Assembly (NCBI RefSeq): GCF_032362555.1
Contig: NC_083517.1
Location: forward strand, 206,001-270,000
Length of the DNA: 64,000 nucleotides
Source of the DNA: Amyelois transitella
Taxonomy: Eukaryota; Arthropoda; Insecta; Lepidoptera; Pyralidae
Reading direction: 5' to 3'
Shown here piece by piece: positions 36,136-63,799 of this stretch. The translations under genes and the position numbers were made by a program. The first letter of the stretch is position 1. Every line of letters begins with the position of its first letter. The notes beneath the pieces are model-generated. The model was not told where the DNA came from and searched no databases. It was given only the letters and a program-made list of their open reading frames with translations.

Positions 36136-37105
36136 GACGCTCACCGCACGTGCGTTGCCGGCAGCGCGTGACGGCTAACTGTCTCATTTCTATTTACCTC
36201 CAATCGGCGTTGTGCTAAAATATTTAAAATTCGAATAATAACTTCTTAAAAACAAACAGGACCGGTTAATGTAACAGTGGCGCATTTAAATCTATGATGG
36301 AGTACTTATTTTTGGGGGATGGCTTGATGGAGGGGTCTTACGTAGAAACCGACAAAGGGCTCTTCGCACCCTGATTCAATTAATCTGTAATTAGAGACGA
36401 GAGTGCTCTTAATGTAGAGTTCGGATTTGACACCCCGGCTGTTACTCAGTAAATGGGATTTTGATAGTTTCACCGGGAGTCCTTCGAGACGCGTGTCACT
36501 ACATTCATTCATTCATTCGTATAAACACGTCTATGTCCCTTGCGGGGTAGACAGAACAGTGTTAAGGCGCTACATTCAGATGACATGTACCTCGATGCGG
36601 GCGAGAGGCTCACCCCGCGCGGGGCTCACCCCCGACCAGCTTGCCCCGCTAGATCGCTAGATAGATCGCCGCCGCTCCGTAGCCGCTGGCGCGCGACCTC
36701 ACGTAACCCGAATAAAGTTTGCGAATGCAATGGAGTCCGCATCAGAATATTTATTGTTTTTGATACAATAAAATTATTTTACAAAAAACATATATATATT
36801 AAATGACATTATAAGCAATGATATAGTTGCGGATGTATGCAAACATTTTGTATGAAATGAATAAGTTTGTAATGGTTTTAAAAAAACTACTCGTAATTAC
36901 TTATTCGATTTCGTTCAATCAAAGGTAATTTACATAGTAATGAATATCATATATTTTTAGGGTTCCGTAGCCAAATGGCAAAAATGAAGAAGTTTACGAC
37001 ATTTTATTTTATATTTTATTTTTTTATTTATTTTTTCGGACACCTTAATATTATTTTGAAAGATCTATCTATAAACACACCACACGTATAGGTGACCCAT
37101 CTATA
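36136..37105. other. Intergenic between lipase gene 1 and the MITE
   Basis: Contains a short GC-rich block (36590-36715) of unknown nature and scraps of families 1 and 8. Confidence 0.45.
36515..36560 (-). mobile_element. Family 1 tail fragment
   Basis: cgtataaacacgtctatgtc to ggggtagacagaacagt. Confidence 0.5.
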
Positions 37106-37369
37106 CAGGGTGATTGGTCCATGGTATACGAAGCCGTGACTAGGGCATACCCCGAGGGTTATGTAAGTCGTGTGGTGAAAAAAAAAAATTATATCTTGCA
37201 AAAAAATTAGCTGTTCCATACAAAGTCGAGGACTGCGATATGCGAAATGAATGGAACAGCAAATTTTTTTTGCAAAATATTAATTATTTTTTCCCCATAC
37301 AACTTATATAACCCTCGGGGTATGCCCTAGTCACGGATTCATATACAATTGAATTGATCAATTGCCCTG
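37106..37369. mobile_element. MITE with imperfect terminal inverted repeats and TA target duplication
   Basis: The ends cagggtgattgg and the inverse ccctg are flanked by TA (37104-37105 and 37370-37371). The subterminal arms match closely in inverted orientation: gtgactagggcataccccga (left, ~37136) against its complement near 37315-37335, with ccgagggttat on both sides. The core is AT-rich with no coding capacity. The TA duplication fits a Tc1/mariner-like or related cut-and-paste parent. Confidence 0.75.
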
Positions 37370-37469
37370 TAAATGCCCCTAAAATTTATTAAAATGTACT
37401 ACTATATTTGGCACTGTTAGTTTATCGAGGGTATATAATGAAAAACACTTCACAAATGTACATTATTGC

Positions 37470-37475
37470 TTTATT
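37470..37475 (-). terminator. Polyadenylation signal for the transposase/nuclease gene
   Basis: aataaa on the minus strand, 59 nt past the stop codon. Confidence 0.5.
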
Positions 37476-37533
37476 TACCCGAATTTAAGGGGCTTACAGG
37501 AGCTTAATTTCTCTGGCCTTGACATCAACCTTT

Positions 37534-39882
37534 TCAATAATCATTTACATCTAAAACACTTTCTATAAACTCACTGGTCTCTTCCAACTCTTCGTTTTCT
37601 TTTTCATTGTGTGTTCTAATATTATTGTATTCGGGAGGCTCTCTAATGGGTCGATTTCTTGTCACTCGAGGATCTACCAATTCGGGTAACAAACAATTAA
37701 TATAAAAATGTATAAGTTTGGGCTTAACATTTTCCCAAAATGTATCGTCTCTATCAATTATTTCAATTTTTACCTTCCCCTCTCCGTACCAAACACCTAG
37801 TACGCATTTTAATTTGTTACAAATTTGTATTTGTCCTTGAGCTTGTATGTACCAATCAGATTTTTTATTGACATATATTTCACCACTTTTTTTGTCTAAA
37901 CGCCAAAAATGAATTTTTCCCTGTTTTATTGCTTCATCAACACCAATTTTAGATGCTACAATGGGGCATTTGACTTCTACCAATGTATCTACACCTATGA
38001 TTCCATCAGGAGTTGCACCTAAATATGGATATGTAGCATCTATAAAAAGCCCACATGGTTGTATTTCCACGCCCAGTTGTTTTGAGACGTCCTCCAAAGC
38101 ATTTTTTTCATTTTTTCTACCGTATTCGATAGACTTTACGTGGCTAATATCATTTTTATAAAGCATGTTTTTAACCATATTAGCGCAGCTGTTACTGACT
38201 CTCCTTTTGTAGACTCGTCCGAAATTTGAAGCGGTCAATAAATTTCGCCGGAGTTCCAGCCATTCCCCACAATCACTCTGCAGTATCGTCCGTTGTTGGA
38301 TTTCTTCACGTTGGCTAGCTGTCTTCTTTAAATTTTCAAGGAAATTTGCTTTTGCTAGCTCAAAACTTTCACTATCCAAATCAGGCTTATCAACATTTAT
38401 GCCATAATCAAAATTAATTTTTTTTGATACGATATTTCTGTTTTTTTTTCTTTGAATTCGTGCATTGTATTGTCTTTTTTTTTCTTTCATGTTTTCATAT
38501 ATTTTACACCTTAATGACGGACTTTTATTATCTACATTTTTACTTACGGTAGTAAGTATTTTTCCGGTGTTAAATGATATTACAGCACCTGCACATCTAC
38601 CTTGATAAGAGCGTCTTAATGAATAATTCACTCTTTTACCCCCGACAAATTTTGCAATAATGCCATTAAATCTTTCAACTATATTGCTGTCTACGTTTTC
38701 AATTAAACTTCTTGCGTGGTTAGCAACGTTGCTAGTTATAAATCGCATTTTATGCCATAGATTGGTATTAAAAAAATGTTGGAAATCGTCCTTTGTAACC
38801 TTCTTACAAATTTCTTTATTACACAAATTATGATTTTCAAACGCATGATTAATTGAACATATAATATCTTTATTCAAGTTTTTTATACTTTCAGATTTAT
38901 TTTCATTAATATTTTTATAATATTCTATGCATTTACAAATATAATGTCTTGCCGACAAAATTTTAGTAATTGTTAATAATTTCCTCTCCGATGAATTATA
39001 TTTTGTTTCGGATTTTAAAGATGACATTTTATTACAAAAATTTCTTAAAATATGATTTTTACAATTAATTTTTTCAACTGTCACATCTGAATAGGGACGT
39101 GCTTCTAAAATTTTAGAGTAAACACTACTATCTCCGTCCGCTATGAATCTTGCATATATAAGTCTGTGCATGGAAACTGACTGTTTGAAACCTTCCACAA
39201 TCATAGCAGATTCCATAGCCGTCGATGGTCCAGAAAAGTTTTTGAAGCATTGGTGTTCTCCGACAGTTTCATTTTTTTTCTCGGCTCTGGCACAAATGCA
39301 ACAATATTTATTTTTAACGCTCATAAAAAGAACTTGACCAAATCGTCTGCCTATAATTGTTGCAGCTCCAGATAGTGCCGAATAATTGGATTTATAGGAT
39401 CGCTTGCTCCAGCAACCATCTAAAATGACATCTATCACGGCATTACCATTTTTGTCTACATTTCCTTCCGATATTGCCGCAGCCCTTTCCTTTTCCCCTG
39501 CCTTCTTCATTTCTTCCCAAGCTGTGGTTTCCCAATCTTCACATATTGCATCATGCGCACTTTTATATACAGATTGGCTAATAGAGGGCAAATCTACGGA
39601 GGCACAAATTTGATTAAGTTGGGCATGGCCGCAACCTGCTGCTATAGTGCCTGCAACTACATTTTTATTTATATTCTGCAGCGAATTTGTTATTTTAAAT
39701 TGTTCATTACACATAGAGCATGACAAAAGAAATTCTGATTCCAATCCAGAACATTTTTCTGTTATTAATTGGATTGTATTAAGTCCACATTGGAATAATG
39801 AGGAATGATTTGCTATATTCTTCAGCTCGTTATAGAAGTGCTGTATGTCTATAATCCTATGTCCATTAATTTCTGGTTTAAT
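37534..39882 (-). CDS. Transposase/nuclease gene, exon 4 (both enzyme domains)
   Basis: Acceptor tattacag before 39882, uninterrupted to the stop TAA at 37536-37534. Contains the whole DDE core and the whole nuclease domain. The reading frame is open upstream of position 39744 to the acceptor (starts IKPEINGHRIIDIQHFYNEL). Confidence 0.9.
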   Translation of the reverse strand: MKPEINGHRIIDIQHFYNELKNIANHSSLFQCGLNTIQLITEKCSGLESEFLLSCSMCNEQFKITNSLQNINKNVVAGTIAAGCGHAQLNQICASVDLPSISQSVYKSAHDAICEDWETTAWEEMKKAGEKERAAAISEGNVDKNGNAVIDVILDGCWSKRSYKSNYSALSGAATIIGRRFGQVLFMSVKNKYCCICARAEKKNETVGEHQCFKNFSGPSTAMESAMIVEGFKQSVSMHRLIYARFIADGDSSVYSKILEARPYSDVTVEKINCKNHILRNFCNKMSSLKSETKYNSSERKLLTITKILSARHYICKCIEYYKNINENKSESIKNLNKDIICSINHAFENHNLCNKEICKKVTKDDFQHFFNTNLWHKMRFITSNVANHARSLIENVDSNIVERFNGIIAKFVGGKRVNYSLRRSYQGRCAGAVISFNTGKILTTVSKNVDNKSPSLRCKIYENMKEKKRQYNARIQRKKNRNIVSKKINFDYGINVDKPDLDSESFELAKANFLENLKKTASQREEIQQRTILQSDCGEWLELRRNLLTASNFGRVYKRRVSNSCANMVKNMLYKNDISHVKSIEYGRKNEKNALEDVSKQLGVEIQPCGLFIDATYPYLGATPDGIIGVDTLVEVKCPIVASKIGVDEAIKQGKIHFWRLDKKSGEIYVNKKSDWYIQAQGQIQICNKLKCVLGVWYGEGKVKIEIIDRDDTFWENVKPKLIHFYINCLLPELVDPRVTRNRPIREPPEYNNIRTHNEKENEELEETSEFIESVLDVNDY

Positions 39883-41985
39883 CTGTAATATAATACAAAC
39901 ATTCGTGTAATCAAACTATAAGTAAGTACTCTAAAATCGCTAGAAGTAAGTTAGAAACTATTACTTACATTTTCATTCGAAGCATTGTTTTCTAAATTTA
40001 AATTTAATATTTCTCCATGATTTTCAATACTTTTTCCAAGACTTTCAATATGTTTCCGTTTACGCGGCGCTTTCTTCGTCAGTACTGATCTAAAATGATA
40101 AATTTAATTCTGCTTCATACTTCTATATTCAATTCAAAAAACAAGGTATCGGAGGGATACGAGCAAGACGCGGGACGGATATAAGTTAGAGCGTCAGCAC
40201 CCATTGCCCATTGTAATAACTTTGCTCCCTAAAGGATTGATTTATCAAAAAAAAATACCGGTCAAGTGCGAGTCAGACTCACGCGCCGAGGGTTCCGTAC
40301 GTGTGTACGGAACCCTCGGTAACACAAGTTTGACATAAACAGTCATATTTAGGATGCCAACAACCTTTAAAAGTTTACAAACTTATATGTGCATGAGTTT
40401 TGTATGAAATATAAGTTTGTAATGATTTTTTTATCCTGTTATAATAAGAAATTCGCAAATTTGGGATCCTTTATCTGCATCATATGTTCTCACTTTGTGC
40501 CAAATTTCAGGATTGTAGGTCAACGGGAAGCATCCCACAAGTTTTGATTCCCCTGTGAAATCACTAAAATTGTGACATAAATGGTAATATTTTTTGATTG
40601 CGTTTACCAACATTTTTGATTATTTTTTTGCCGAAAGATATTATAATCCCGAGTATATATTATGAATTTTTAACTTTGTACCCCTACGCGTTACTGAGAA
40701 AAACATGTTTGATAGGCAGACAGACGGACAGACAGACCGAGTGATCCTATAAAGGTTCCGTTTTTTCCTTTTGAGGTACGGAACCCTAAAAAAGTAGCCA
40801 ATATTTGAACCCAAGTGCCCAACTATTTTATACCAAATTTCATCAAAATCGGTCCAGCAGTTTAGCCATGAAGAGGAACAGACAGACAGACAGACTTTCG
40901 CATTTGTAATATTAGTATGCAAGTATGGATTTACGACTCGTTATCTTTATAAGTAAATGTTACATTTATTTTTCACGAGCTGTTGCCCCGCAGCTTCACT
41001 CGCGACTTTTTTTCATAGTAACTTTCACTATCCATTTCAACTCTTTAGGGGGTTGAATTAAAAAAAAAGAAGTAAGCCTATGTTTGACCTCTGGTATCTA
41101 ACTGTTTCCATACCAAATTTCATCAAAATCGGTCCAGCGGTTTAGCCGTGAAGAGGTAACAGACAGACAAACTTTCGCATTTGTAATATTAGTATGGATT
41201 TGACTATAACCGACATAATAATAAATCAACCAAGTGCAAGTCGGACTCACCCTTGAGAAGCCTACAAAAACCTAAAAACCAGTACCAAGTTGTGAAGTTT
41301 AATTATTTGAAGGTATTTTTTTAACCTAGCACCGACTTTCAAATTTTGTTATAATTTCACGATTTTGAAAAAAGGTTTTATATCAATAAAATAATATTAT
41401 AAGTAGGTACCATACCGTTTACTATCTTGGGTTTTCGTTGATGTCGGCGTCGGAATAATCCCATGACTATCTAAGTCCATTATATCAACTGTCGACTCCA
41501 CACCATCCGCACTTCTCTGTTCGGACATTGTCAACGGCGATATCGGAGACAATTTATTTTTCCTAAAAATTAATAACAATCAAATAATAGGATAATAACT
41601 GTAATCGGGCCAAATGAAAACCCTGCGACGTCTTGCACGTACCCTGAATAATACAGTTACCTAGCAGTAAGTACCTATAGAAAAATATATATAGTTTCCG
41701 TAGGCAAAGACCAGGGCAACACCTAGTGATAGTAGGTATAACCGACGGCGGCGGAGCGGCGGCGCCCGCCACTGTTGTTTGTTATTTTATCTATCTACCT
41801 ACCTACTGCCGCCCCGCCACAAGCCGGTATCAAATGAAATATCTTTCACTTTCAGTGAATGCGGAAAAAAATCTCAGTAGGCATCTATATGTCTATCTAT
41901 TAGTAAGTGTAATTAGTACTCACCATCTAAATTGTCTCATATGGGAAGCTCTTTCAAGCTTTTTCTTTTTTTTACATGCTAACAT
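37534..41985 (-). CDS. Mutator-like DDE transposase fused to YqaJ/lambda-exonuclease-type nuclease, four exons, intact
   Basis: Exons in order: 41985-41924, 41562-41416, 40089-39969, 39882-37534; phases agree throughout, giving 892 residues. The N-terminus is basic (MLACKKKKKLERA) and residues 70-90 carry a likely nuclear localisation signal (TKKAPRKRKH). A CSMC zinc-type pair lies near residue 166. A Mutator-type RNase H core follows with candidate acids Asp265 (VILDGCW), Asp359 (FIADGDSSVY) and Glu513 (NIVERFNG). The C-terminal third is YqaJ-like: ELRRNLLTASNFG, IEYGRKNE, ATPDG (Asp736), LVEVKCP (Glu746/Lys748, the E-x-K of PD-(D/E)XK nucleases) and WYIQAQGQIQ. Proteins pairing these two domains are known in several animal genomes. 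By family, one part would cut and join DNA and the other would resect duplex ends; neither activity is shown here. It may be a living mobile element or a domesticated gene. No terminal repeats enclosing the whole unit were found by eye. Confidence 0.85.
39969..40089 (-). CDS. Transposase/nuclease gene, exon 3
   Basis: Acceptor cattttag, donor gtaagtaa. Encodes SVLTKKAPRKRKHIESLGKS, a strongly basic stretch, then an Asn/Leu-rich linker. Phases match both neighbours. Confidence 0.75.
40255..40795. mobile_element. Family 8 'ggttccgta' repeat in the transposase/nuclease intron 2
   Basis: gtcaagtgcgagtcagactc, an internal perfect 15-bp hairpin (40286-40300 with 40305-40319), gacagacggacagacagacc, and the end gaggtacggaaccctaaaaa. 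Scraps recur at 36955-36985 and 41230-41270. Confidence 0.7.
40796..41207 (+). mobile_element. Two LINE-type 3' ends in tandem
   Basis: Both carry ccaaatttcatcaaaatcgg tccag(c)(a/g)g and finish cgcatttgtaatattagtat (to 40918 and to 41207). Confidence 0.7.
41416..41562 (-). CDS. Transposase/nuclease gene, exon 2
   Basis: Acceptor attttttag-type tract, donor cg|gtatgg. Encodes KNKLSPISPLTMSEQRSADG and a Ser/Thr/Pro-rich linker. An internal ATG (LTMSEQ) could also serve as a start. Confidence 0.65.
41924..41985 (-). CDS. Transposase/nuclease gene, exon 1
   Basis: ATG at 41985, 20 codons plus two bases, strong donor gtgagtac. Encodes MLACKKKKKLERASHMRQFR; the junction codon becomes Trp. Confidence 0.6.
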
Positions 41986-42649
41986 GACGTAAAATTATAC
42001 ACCTATTTACACTAAACGAAACAAAAAAACTGTATTAAAAACTAACCTAAACTATCTATAAAAAACTTAAACACTATGATATAACACAATTATGTACAAA
42101 AATAAATTCAAACAAAATGAATGTGGGAAATAAAATACTTCGCAGAATATTTTTCAACGACGCTCGGAGCGACTGGCACAGGTACTGCGTCGGAGAATGT
42201 GATCCGCGGAGTGAGGCACGCTTACAAAGGAGAGCGCTTTATCCCGTCCGGTCGTGTAGGAATGAGACAGAGATAAAGTGTCGGCACTCTACTGTCCAGT
42301 ACTATTGTCGCAACAATTTTAATTCCTGTTTTCATCTATTTAGATTAATAACGTCTAAACAAAACATCCAATCGAAATTTTATCTTCCAGAAGTTATTAT
42401 TTTTTAATGATCTTCAATTTGGTACAAAATTCATATTTTAAATCCTTATAGTTTGAGATAAATTATCGAAATCTAGACTTGTGTTCTTGAATTATTTTGA
42501 TCGAGGATTTTTGTTCCAATCGTGTTTTCATCTTCCACAAATATAATTGAATATATTTACTTTCATATCCTAAAATATTGAAACGATGCAAGTTATATTT
42601 TATGAGAAAAAATCAAGTGAAAATGACCCAAAATCTATGATGTATCACC

Positions 42650-42800
42650 TTAATAGACTGATAGGCCGTTCAGCTAATAGACTATGATAGAAATGAGATT
42701 CAAATAGTGACAGGTTGCTAGCCTATCGCCATTTTTTAGGCGAATCCCAAGAATCCCAAGTTTATGAAGCCTAACCCTTTGTCGCCTTTTACGACTGTCA
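42650..42800 (-). mobile_element. Family 1 fragment
   Basis: tagactgataggccgttcag to gtcgccttttacgac. Confidence 0.65.
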
Positions 42801-50413: not shown

Positions 50414-53400
50414 GTAAGTTTATTTTTAAATTTTTCGAGTTTAAAAATGGGCGATTACAATTGACAGTCAAAAAAGTAATTTTATTTTTATCGAGGTGGG
50501 TGATGAATATTTGCACAAAATGTTATTTTGTGTCTACCTCGTAAAGGATAAAGATGTGATTGTATGTAGGTATGTATGTTCTTGTTTTGTTTGCATTGAT
50601 TACATATTTGTTTGGCGGGAATTCAAACAGCATGTTGTTTGTGTTTTAAGTTGTAATATTTTCGCTAAATTTGTTGTTACTTGAAAGTATTGCTTAGGAC
50701 TTGGTCCTCGTGAGAATTTCGAGAAAAAAATAGCCTATGTTACGCCAAAATTAGTAGCCTTGCTATTGTCTGTTTGTATTGTAAAAATATCATCAAAATC
50801 GGTCTAAGAGTTTATTTATAAAAATTAAGAGATATATATCTTTTAATTTTTTCAATATAAATATATTAAGATTGTAGCTTATAAAGTTGTTTAGTAAGTG
50901 TTAAAGAATGACACCTCAATTATTGTGGTTTTTCTATTTACTCATTATTAAAACATACAGAAATCGCGCCTCTTTCCCGGAGGGGTAGGCAGATACCACA
51001 TACTTCCACTTGCACTGATAAATCCCGATCCCTTAAAACATATATATGTATAAATATCAAAAATAATTTGTTGTTGGGGTTAATTAGTGTCCTAATTAAA
51101 TAAAAAAGGGGAGTTGTATGACAAAATTCATTTTTAATTTTCTTTCGAAAAGAAAAGGTAATAAATACATGAAAAATCATTCAATTTTTTTTTTATTGGA
51201 CATATTACACAGTTTGAGTTAGCCCCGATGTAAGTTCGAGACTTGTGTTACGAGATACTAACTCAACGATGCTATATTTTATAATAAATACTTATATAGA
51301 TAAACATCCAAGACCCAGGCCAATCAGAAAAAGTTCTATTCTCATCATGCCCTGACCGGGATTCGAACCCGGGACCTCCGGTGTCACAGACAAGCGTACT
51401 ACCGCTGCGCCACAGAGGCCGTCATATCAAAATGTAATATATAATTATTTTTTTCAGTTACTGAGTCTTGTATATCTACCAATGAGCGTCTACTGTGAAT
51501 TCCGTAAACTCCGTTCACAAGAAAAGTTACACCACGTCAGGATTCTGAACCGGATACGATGTATATGTTTCACGAGCATATTACTGCCCACCACAACTGT
51601 AAGTTATATTTCTAATGCAACTATATACATACATATAATATTAATCGCGTTCGAATTCCGGCCAGGGCATGATGAGAAAAGAACTTTTTCTGATTGGCCT
51701 GGGTCTTGGATGTTTATCTATTGCTATACATATAAGTATTTATTATAAAATATAGTATCGTTGAGTTAGTTTCTCGTAACACAAGTTTCGAACTTATTTC
51801 CAGGCTAACCCAATCTGTGTAATTTGTCCCGTAAAAAAAATAATAATAATAAAAAATCTACTAACTTCATACATTTTATACAGGGTGTCTGGTGAATCGC
51901 ATTACATATTTACTTAAGGACATTGTAAATTTATACTAATATTATAAAGCTGAAGATTTTGTTTGTTTATTTGTTTGTTTGAACGCGCTAATCTCAGGAA
52001 CAATTAGTTCGAATTGAATAATTTTGCGTTGAATAGACCATTTATCGATTTATTCGATTAGGCTATATAACATCACGCTGCAACTATAAGGAGCAAAGAA
52101 ATAATTGAAAATGTGAAAAATACGGGGAAAATTCTTCAGCAGCTTCAATGATGCCCAAAATAACTATTCCACGCGGACTTAGTCGCGGGTACAGCTAGTC
52201 ATTCATATATTCTTATAATGCGTAGACAGGTTGCAGTAATAAATGTAGAAGTCCTATTCTTTAGAGACAAAAAAAATATATGTATCTACTATAATTATAG
52301 GAACGCCTCTAAAAATGACATATAGATTTTAATTCCGAAACAGTCACTATTCTTATTGCGGTAAACATGCGTAAGAAGTTGTGGGCAAAAGCTAGTATAC
52401 TCTAAATTGTCTGTAACGATATAGGATCAGAATGCCATGTTTCCAAAACAACGTGGTGGCTACGTCAGTTGGTTGTGTTTCAAATAGTTTCTGACTGGGA
52501 ATGCTATGTGGAGTTTTGAAGGAGATTAATGCTCGCAGGAATCCTGTTTATTAGTTATACTACACTAGTATTTGCCATCGGATACGCTCATGTAAACTAG
52601 AATATACGAACAGTACTTTTTAAAAAATAAAATGTATGCAATATACATTTTATTTTAAAAAATACTGTTAGTGTACATTTTATTTTAAAAAATAACGGTT
52701 TCTATGGCGAAGCGGTAGTGCTCAATTGTATAAAACAGAATAGAATAGATTTATTTTCAAAATTGGATACAAGCTATTACTTATTTGACGTCACATCACT
52801 TAAATCTAATTATTATTACTACCGCTTCCAAAGCGCATGTGTAGAAGAAGCGGCGGAACAAACTACACTGCAGCATTGCGGAACAAACTACATTGTCTGT
52901 GATACAGTAGGTCCCAGGTTTGAATACCGGCCAGAGCATGATCAGAAACGAACTTTTTACTCCACAACCTTCTAGAGAAGTCTAACCCACATTTGGATCA
53001 GGTTATACAACTTGCCTGAATGTCTCCTGACGACCTTTAGAACATTAGGATACTAACTGCCTAAAAATAGGTATACGGGACAAATTACACTGATTGAGTT
53101 AGCCTCGAAGTAAGTTCGAGATTTGTGTTACGAGATACGAACTCAACGATACTATATTTTATAAAAAATACTTATAAAGATAAACGTCCAGGACCCAGGC
53201 CAATCAGAAAAATTTCTTTACTCATCATGCCCTGGCCGGGATTTGAACCCGGGACCTCCGATGTCACAGACAAGCGTACTACCGCTGCGCCACAGAGGCC
53301 GTCCTTAGTACCTTAGTTCTCAATTTTTTTTATTATTAAAATTTTGTATTAGTCAATTAATGACAACAATGTATTCTCTCGTCCACATTTCTATTTTAAG

Positions 53401-61700: not shown

Positions 61701-63775
61701 ATATTCGTCCGGTACTAGGTGCCACTTTTTAAAATTATGTTTTTTGTTACCAAAGTTTGTTTGATAGTATTCATTATTTTTTTTTGTTAAATTAATTTGA
61801 TTTCTAACTTTGTTATCTAATATAAGTCATAATTTTATAAACATTCCTTAAATATTTTATGTTTTATTTTGAAATAACCTTAGGTGTCCGCCACTGGGGG
61901 ACTTCCCCCTATTGATTGATGACATTGATTGATTTTCAGCCGAGTGAACGGCCAGCAAATGAGCTTGACCACTCAGAGTTCTGACATCATACAGGGGGTG
62001 ACCACGGTTGTGATTGTGCACGGTCATGAGGAATCCTATCAGACTTCTCTCAACCCTGACCTGAGAAGAGGTAACTAATAAATTATTCCATATCCTTAGC
62101 AATGATAGATGGATAAATAGATTTGTATAAGTTAAGAGCGTCAATGTACTCACGACTAGTACAAGTAAGTTCCTGGGTGACCGAGCCGTGCTCAGTGGAC
62201 CATAAAAAGTAGTTAAATAAAAATAACACCATCCCAAACAAATCCCACGAAAAGAATGGCGAAGAAAAATAATTTCCCAGGCCAGGGATCGAAGCCAGGC
62301 TCATCGACTTTAAAGCCGAATCGCTGGCCAACTCAGCAATCAGGGGACCAGTCGCCGCGCCGAAATTATCGTTATCTTGTGACCATTTTATATGGTAAAT
62401 GTTTTTGGGTGAAAATATGGGAAGAAATATACCTATATTTCAAATTTCAACGAAATCCCTAGAGCGGTTACCGAGAACGCTAATACAGATATGTAAACAT
62501 AAGCGTCAAGTATATTGCTCTAAATGAGCATATAAAATGATCACAGTATGGCGTAAAAGTAAGTTGTCTTCATACATTAAGTCCGAATGTCAGTGGAGCG
62601 GCATCAACCTTTGCAGCCAAAACCTTTTGGATTGATTCTCATCATGCCCTGACCGAGAACCCGGGACTGCATCACAGACGGTGCCAAATCTAATTTAAAA
62701 CAATCATGTACCTAATTTTTGTTGCAGAACTTCTAGAGAGTCAAAATGTCAATGTGATAGCCGTGGATTGGTCTATTATCGCGTCGTTGTCGTACTCTCT
62801 AGCCCAGAACTCTGTGCTCAGTGTCGGCGAGTATATGGCTGGCTTCCTGGCCTTGCAGAACATAAACCCAGCGTCCCTTCATCTAGTGGGATTTAACCTT
62901 GGAGCTCATGTGGTTGGCGTCGCTGGCAGGAGACTTGGACGAGTCGCCAGGATCACAGGTATATCTTCTGTATATGTAAAAGACTAGCTGTGCCCTGTGA
63001 CTTCGTCCGCGTGGAACAGTTATTTTGGGCATCATTGATGGATGGGTGATTCACTACTGACTATTTAATAGTACATTGTAGTTGTGCCGTGTGGTTGCCG
63101 GCAGTGCCGTGTGGTTCCCGGCACCAATACAAAAAAGAATATGACAACTCCATCTCTTTCCCATGGATGTCGTAAAAGTCGATTAAGGGATAGGCTTACA
63201 AACTTGGGATTCTTTTTTAGGCGATGGACTGGCAACCTGTCACTATTTGTAGCTCAATTCTATCATTAAGCCAAATAGCTGAACGTGGCCATTCAGTCTT
63301 TTCAAGACTGTTGGCTCTGTCTACCCCGCAAGGGATATAGACGTCACCATATGTACATTGTAGCACATTCAGAGAGCCCCAAGCACCTTGTAATAACAAT
63401 TGCAAATAAGCAACATTCATACATACATAATCTGGAAACCTTCAAACCTATTCCAGCACTGGATCCGTCAATGAGCAACGTCCGACTGACCAGCACTGAC
63501 GCGAACTACGTCGAGGTCATCCACACTGACGGGTCTTCCAACGGCCTGGGCGTTCAGATCGGCCACGCCGACTTCTTCCCCAACGGAGGCGGTTCCCAGC
63601 CTGGGTGCTGGGGCAACGACGCCTGCAGCCACAACAGGGCGTGGCTGTACTTCGTGGCCTCCATCAGGGATAACACGTTCAATGCCAGGTGCTGCAGAAC
63701 TATACGCCAGAAGAACTTGGACCGCTGTCGTGGCGCTTATTTGCCGATGGGGGGAAATGAGTTGATTAAAACGCC
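58747..63775 (+). CDS. Lipase-family protein with nucleophile Ser replaced by Asn (probable pseudo-enzyme), 3' end outside window
   Basis: Exons 58747-58783, 60331-60412, 61940-62070, 62728-62958 and 63457-63775 join in phase for 266 codons and continue past the donor gtgagtag at 63776. Exon 1 is a signal peptide (MIRSVFVLAIALAIATG across the junction), so the product is probably secreted. Motifs: FNRYYLYNR, TTVVIVHGHEES (oxyanion loop), NVIAVDWS, elbow GFNLGAHVVGVAG where Asn140 (AAC) stands at the serine position, ITALDP with Asp163, VIHTDGSSNGLG, FFPNGGGSQPGC, and CSHNRAWLYFV with His219. Asp and His of the triad are kept and the lid is short, as in insect phospholipase A1-like proteins. 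The change is one base from AGC. Loss of the serine recalls insect yolk proteins, which are lipase homologues without catalysis. The expected YYLxTN C-terminal exon must lie beyond 64000. Confidence 0.85.
58829..59074 (+). mobile_element. Family 4 retroposon in intron 1 of the pseudo-lipase gene
   Basis: ctagctgtgcccgcgacttc to tttataatattagtataga, close in sequence to the copy at 57033-57305. Confidence 0.85.
59085..59340. other. GC-rich block of unknown origin in pseudo-lipase intron 1
   Basis: Sharply GC-rich between two AT-rich retroposons, with a minus-strand open frame rich in Pro, Arg and Ala (HDDDAYRLLPGARATLTP). It may be the 5' part of a LINE; not identified. Confidence 0.4.
59850..60047 (+). 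mobile_element. Family 5 retroposon, copy B
   Basis: Same ends as copy A; lies in intron 1 of the pseudo-lipase gene, 38 kb away. Confidence 0.88.
60331..60412 (+). CDS. Pseudo-lipase gene, exon 2
   Basis: Acceptor attgttacag, donor gtaaac. Encodes the mature N-terminus with an acidic DSDD cluster and the strand FNRYYLYNR. Confidence 0.75.
61473..61732 (+). pseudogene. pogo/Tigger-type DDE transposase fragment, frameshifted
   Basis: A first frame reads MKRHSDISLRTPESTS...GFNKPRVDLFYDNLEKLMKQY, the typical stretch just before the catalytic core of pogo-like transposases. After a one-base slip near 61637 the frame continues FTPSRIYNCDETGVSCVHK, whose DETG carries the first catalytic Asp of the DDE_1 family. 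The remainder of the core is missing. A dead remnant in an intron of the pseudo-lipase gene. Confidence 0.75.
61940..62070 (+). CDS. Pseudo-lipase gene, exon 3
   Basis: Acceptor gattttcag, donor gtaact. Encodes SLTTQSSDIIQGVTTVVIVH and GHEESYQTSL, including the oxyanion-loop motif VHGH. Confidence 0.8.
62636..62672 (-). mobile_element. Family 2 SINE scrap
   Basis: tctcatcatgccctgaccga and acccgggactgcatcacaga. Confidence 0.5.
62728..62958 (+). CDS. Pseudo-lipase gene, exon 4 (altered elbow)
   Basis: Acceptor tttgttgcag, donor gtatat. Encodes VNVIAVDWS, GEYMAGFLALQ and HLVGFNLGAHVVGVAG; the Ser position of the elbow is Asn140. Confidence 0.88.
62983..63045 (+). mobile_element. Family 4 retroposon, head only
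   Basis: gactagctgtgccctgtgac to gttattttgggcatcattga, starting 25 nt after exon 4 of the pseudo-lipase gene. Confidence 0.7.
63081..63356 (+). mobile_element. Family 1 retroposon with doubled head
   Basis: gtgccgtgtggttgccggca is followed at once by gtgccgtgtggttcccggca, then a complete body and tail gtcaccatatgtacatt. In the last visible intron of the pseudo-lipase gene. Confidence 0.85.
63457..63775 (+). CDS. Pseudo-lipase gene, exon 5 (Asp and His)
   Basis: Acceptor ctattccag, strong donor gtgagtag. Contains ALDPS (Asp163), VIHTDG, HADFFPNGGGSQPGC and CSHNRAW (His219). The cysteine spacing near the end (CCRTI...RCRG) is typical of the family. Confidence 0.88.
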
Positions 63776-63799
63776 GTGAGTAGATTTTTTTATATTTAC

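Follow-up and report, generated by a model that had tools for sequence, protein, structure and literature searches.

An apparently intact KolobokE-type gene joining a DDE transposase to a YqaJ-type nuclease in Amyelois transitella

Described transposons with an added DNA enzyme

Kolobok transposons insert with a 4-bp TTAA target-site duplication and in several lineages carry a DNA enzyme besides the transposase. According to the lineage description, this is a RecQ helicase in KolobokH, a DEDDh (DnaQ) exonuclease in KolobokD, and a His-Me finger nuclease in KolobokP (PMC9587614). KolobokE is described there as combining an Asp-Asp-Glu (DDE) transposase, a C/DxxH signature, and two zinc fingers with a PD-D/ExK nuclease further downstream; its termini have the form 5'-RR...YY-3'. 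Here, we analyze a gene with the same combination from the moth Amyelois transitella, located in a 64,000-nucleotide stretch of contig NC_083517.1 (assembly GCF_032362555.1, positions 206,001 to 270,000), referred to below as the window.

A DDE transposase is likewise paired with a YqaJ nuclease in the animal transposon ISL2EU, but there the nuclease occupies a separate open reading frame (ORF), and the transposase is of the PHIS (Harbinger-like) type with helix-turn-helix (HTH)/THAP domains and the target site A|AT|T (PMC4482050, PMC9179366). Membership in ISL2EU was rejected since in the window both domains share one open frame, within exon 4. What the additional ORFs of PHIS transposons do, YqaJ included, was given as unknown in 2015 (PMC4482050). 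The nuclease resembles lambda exonuclease and LHK-Exo in fold and in the register of its catalytic residues (Asp, Glu, and Lys), but those two are stand-alone enzymes without a transposase.

The first-pass annotation had suggested that the gene represents something new. The fusion is indeed real and intact, but such an arrangement had been published by 2022 (PMC9587614), and it recurs in several insect orders. The window protein is a further member of a described lineage and not a new kind of protein. In a literature search whose coverage left out most subscription journals, nothing was found that pairs "Mutator-like transposase" with "YqaJ," and the name KolobokE turned up in a single paper.

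A transposase and a nuclease in one predicted chain

When rebuilt from GT-AG splice sites and phase, the four minus-strand exons (Table 1) join in phase into a protein of 892 amino acids (aa) plus stop, with no internal stop or frameshift, just as had been proposed. The open frame around exon 4, with 793 codons, is much longer than expected by chance: no other frame in the window exceeds 168 codons, and the longest in 200 mononucleotide shuffles of 37001-42500 has 171. Exons 1 to 3 are predicted from splice sites, phase, and a basic N terminus that is weakly similar in some homologues (for example, ASHM-Q-R in homologue P0010).

A Pfam profile search matched residues 18 to 370 of the exon 4 frame to PF20700 (E 5.5e-94) and residues 551 to 657 to PF09588, YqaJ (E 2.7e-9; profile positions 1 to 120 of 150), both above the gathering scores, in line with the two domains originally named. 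Conservation was counted over all 96 homologues aligned with the query, gaps being set aside per column; two smaller, hand-picked alignments held 29 (A1) and 59 (A2) of the 96. The six catalytic residues named at the outset, D265, D359, and E513 of the transposase and D736, E746, and K748 of the nuclease, lie at those positions and are conserved in 97 to 100% of the aligned homologues (D265, 92/92; D359, 93/93; E513, 94/96), while the QAQGQ motif forms residues 790 to 794. A structure model (predicted local distance difference test [pLDDT], 88.8; predicted template modeling score [pTM], 0.61) matches both the ISCth4 transposase and lambda exonuclease. Profile matches, conservation, and model matches agree with the earlier proposal that a DDE transposase and a nuclease of the lambda-exonuclease type are fused here and that the active-site residues of both are intact. 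The predicted protein is a single chain in which an RNase-H-fold DDE transposase is followed by a C-terminal lambda-exonuclease-fold nuclease, with the expected catalytic residues in both.

The transposase carries further motifs that bear on its classification. A CxxH signature (C384xxH387; each residue 92/93) lies between the second Asp and the Glu, and between this signature and the last Glu there is a zinc finger composed of H456, H461, C464, and C469, with the third-position C464 conserved in 94/94. In addition, a CCHC finger follows the first Asp (C304, 93/93; C307, 94/94; H320, 95/95; C322, 93/95). In the lineage description, nearly all Kolobok transposases have a finger located after C/DxxH and before the last Glu, and a second finger, of the CCHC type and downstream of the first Asp, is restricted within Kolobok to KolobokP, E, D, and 5 and a few solitary families (PMC9587614). 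Four protein-level features of KolobokE were found in the window protein, including CxxH, the two zinc fingers, and the downstream PD-D/ExK nuclease. On the basis of these described features, we are confident in assigning the protein to the KolobokE lineage of TTAA-targeting Kolobok transposons. "Mutator-like" is then a Pfam family name only, because both fingers and CxxH fit Kolobok and the lineage is KolobokE. Of the "Mutator-like DDE core" in the first-pass annotation, the intact triad and the PF20700 match stand, whereas the Mutator identity does not.

Table 1. Exons of the fusion gene and other features of the window
Feature	Position	Strand	Description
Exon 1	41924..41985	-	62 nucleotides (nt); start ATG, basic N terminus; GT donor, phase with exon 2
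Exon 2	41416..41562	-	147 nt; unconserved linker; AG acceptor and GT donor, in phase
Intron 2	40090..41415	-	Repeats recurring elsewhere in the window (blastn of intron against window; direct repeats)
Exon 3	39969..40089	-	121 nt; linker with basic stretch; AG acceptor and GT donor, in phase
Exon 4	37534..39882	-	2349 nt including stop; residues 111-892; transposase and PD-D/ExK nuclease (Pfam, conservation, structure)
Inverted repeat	37118-37352		Palindromic, like a miniature inverted-repeat transposable element (MITE); ~80% self-complementary; just downstream of gene
Dispersed repeat	42649-42796		Like a short interspersed element (SINE); upstream of gene; 23 further matches in window
tRNA-like matches	53228-53299 and 51348-51419 (-)		Both 33.1 bits; tRNA genes or tRNA-derived repeats
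Open frame	63279-63776	+	Lipase domain piece (PF00151, E 2e-16); probably host lipase gene exon

Relatives, element ends, and the origin of this copy

Besides the 96 homologues, two further protein searches were evaluated through the best 120 of 200 and the best 120 of 250 matches, the former after scoring the 7992 candidates that shared most words. Among the matches listed, the fusion occurs in many Lepidoptera, beetles, bees, an ant, parasitoid wasps, aphids, a leafhopper, a caddisfly, and a stick insect, the orders being assigned from species names. We compared pairs within 20 species, chosen by eye for having at least two named entries among 201 proteins. In 17 of them, at least one same-species pair is less than 60% identical, with the proviso that some pairs overlap over only 54 to 245 residues and that the two entries of a pair may in some cases belong to different assemblies; the remaining three have only pairs of 94 to 100% identity, one of which (Choristoneura) is apparently the same locus. 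Aquatica leii has two members, listed on contigs of 198 and 283 Mb, that share 98.4% of 761 aligned residues (89.5% identity with gaps).

Trees were built from the 96 homologues, from 69 of the 201 proteins, and from 18 named rows, each with the query. In the last of these, the gene tree conflicts with the species tree: the geometrid Operophtera groups with the crambid Ostrinia (100/100) in the midst of other crambids, and Leptidea, Colias, and one Scirpophaga copy cluster together (100/100). A grouping of the four crambid rows was rejected (approximately unbiased [AU] test, p 0.00013), this group having been picked after the tree was seen. Because several divergent lineages coexist per species and the trees conflict, the family, judged from its sequences, behaves like mobile elements; mobility of the window copy itself does not follow from this.

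Some relatives have other architectures. In gene models of Spodoptera exigua (P0112) and Diatraea saccharalis (P0132), the fusion is linked with Vps39, CNH, and clathrin-repeat domains and with PDZ domains, respectively, as would be expected if the element had inserted into a host gene, if gene models had been merged, or if it had been exonised. The hymenopteran proteins P0074, P0075, P0078, and P0085 have an extended C terminus, which on visual inspection of P0074, P0078, and P0085 resembles a Ulp1/C48 peptidase; Pfam matches to this peptidase fell just below the cut-off in P0075 (E 0.0007) and P0085 (E 0.001) and were absent in P0074 and P0078. Among the best 120 of 250 matches to the nuclease region, 12 transposase-free proteins of 489 to 635 aa contain two YqaJ stretches each (P0150, P0156, P0158, P0159, P0162, P0167, P0168, P0169, P0170, P0171, P0173, and P0179). 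In the five inspected in sequence, P0150, P0156, P0167, P0168, and P0170, PDG and E-x-K motifs are present in both copies and the C terminus is like that of the fusion, and the seven double-YqaJ proteins placed in the tree of 69 proteins form one clade (100*). They may represent a nuclease that has left the transposon or, alternatively, the source from which the transposon acquired it. Relatives with DNA were also looked for among viral contigs, where 115 stretches matched but none was a relative.

No terminal repeats had been noticed around the gene. Scans for inverted repeats, and for terminal inverted repeats (TIRs) with duplications of 2 to 11 bp or TTAA, also detected none that stood out from chance, but this test has low power because published Kolobok ends, at 11 to 15 of 16, are indistinguishable from chance. 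For Xenopus Kolobok elements, the six end pairs taken from the literature agree at 11, 11, 14, 11, 15, and 11 of 16 positions. Around the gene, the best candidate pairs for three flank widths, at 8, 11, and 11 of 16, were equaled in 66/112, 46/98, and 80/85 shifted controls, which were run for one TTAA/end scan only. Positions 37457-42098, with a pair matching at 16 of 20, were rejected as element bounds; the duplication is just AAA, and six rows in the same scan reach 16 to 17 of 20. MuDR and the Mutator-like elements (MULEs) generate target-site duplications of 8 to 11 bp, and candidates with duplications of MuDR size had ends matching at 11 to 14 of 20, mostly AT rich.

In our view, the gene likely forms the coding unit of a KolobokE DNA transposon or of a stranded copy whose ends are not recognisable, and the window copy probably arose by transposition rather than being a domesticated gene. 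Several observations weigh against this view. Neither a TTAA duplication nor inverted ends, as described for Kolobok, appeared around the gene in the low-power scans, and a host gene, too, could have introns and an intact frame with no ends in view. Among the 96 homologues, the nearest is about 63% identical, such that a close mobile relative was not seen. With respect to the nuclease, the QAQGQ glutamines are less conserved (64/70, 65/72, and 61/72) than its other residues, and the relative placement of the two domains is uncertain (pTM 0.61). A true MULE transposase with a nuclease might be considered in view of the name "Mutator-like transposase" for PF20700 and of the C/DxxH signature, which MuDR shares, but both zinc fingers are present here, and the one before the last Glu is, in the lineage description, absent in MuDR, P, and hAT (PMC9587614). 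We therefore reject membership in MuDR/MULE and regard such an origin as most improbable.

A host gene derived from a KolobokE copy, with the ends lost in the distant past and the gene retained by selection for repair or genome defence, would account for the complete frame and catalytic residues, the undetected ends, and the four-exon structure. For Xenopus, domestication of Kolobok transposases has been proposed, as 24 of the 62 belong to clusters common to two species; according to the same report, however, only 5 of these 24 keep the DDE triad (PMC6004289), whereas all catalytic residues are kept here. The several lineages per species and the conflict with the species tree also argue against a domesticated gene, as does the low power of the end test, and we consider this explanation unlikely. 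For the "domesticated DNA-defence factor" that had been suggested, we found no positive evidence, in a family that behaves like mobile elements. As a variant of origin by transposition, the copy may be a neutral, stranded KolobokE that has not decayed and in which neither enzyme matters now. The undetected ends and the repeats in intron 2 and the flanks are consistent with this, but 892 codons without a stop or frameshift speak against it and suggest that the insertion is recent or constrained. We see neutral stranding as a real but lesser possibility.

A possible role for the tethered nuclease

Lambda exonuclease acts on 5'-phosphorylated duplex ends. In a KolobokE element, the transposase would excise the element, and the tethered nuclease might resect, in cis, the ends just made by its partner, most usefully at the donor gap. 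Resection of the 5' strands would favour homologous repair of this gap from the sister or homologue and thereby restore the element copy. At the transposon's own ends, resection would harm integration, such that the nuclease would need to be kept off them or to act after strand transfer. End processing by the nuclease is plausible; resection at the donor site is a tentative proposal that may well be wrong. Somewhat more doubtful still is the broader idea that KolobokE is a self-contained cut-and-resect machine, in which 5'-to-3' resection would commit the donor break to homologous repair and gain a copy per jump, and that KolobokH (RecQ helicase), KolobokD (exonuclease), and ISL2EU (YqaJ) are independent solutions to the same problem, each with its own resection enzymes.

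In conclusion, an apparently intact two-enzyme protein of the KolobokE type, together with confident domain models and conservation data on both active sites, may serve as a test bed for transposon accessory nucleases. Given the RecQ of KolobokH, the DnaQ-type exonuclease of KolobokD, and the YqaJ ORF of ISL2EU, recurrent recruitment of such enzymes becomes a testable theme. If resection in cis does drive copy gain, this would explain why enzymes of the end-resecting type are found in several transposon lineages.
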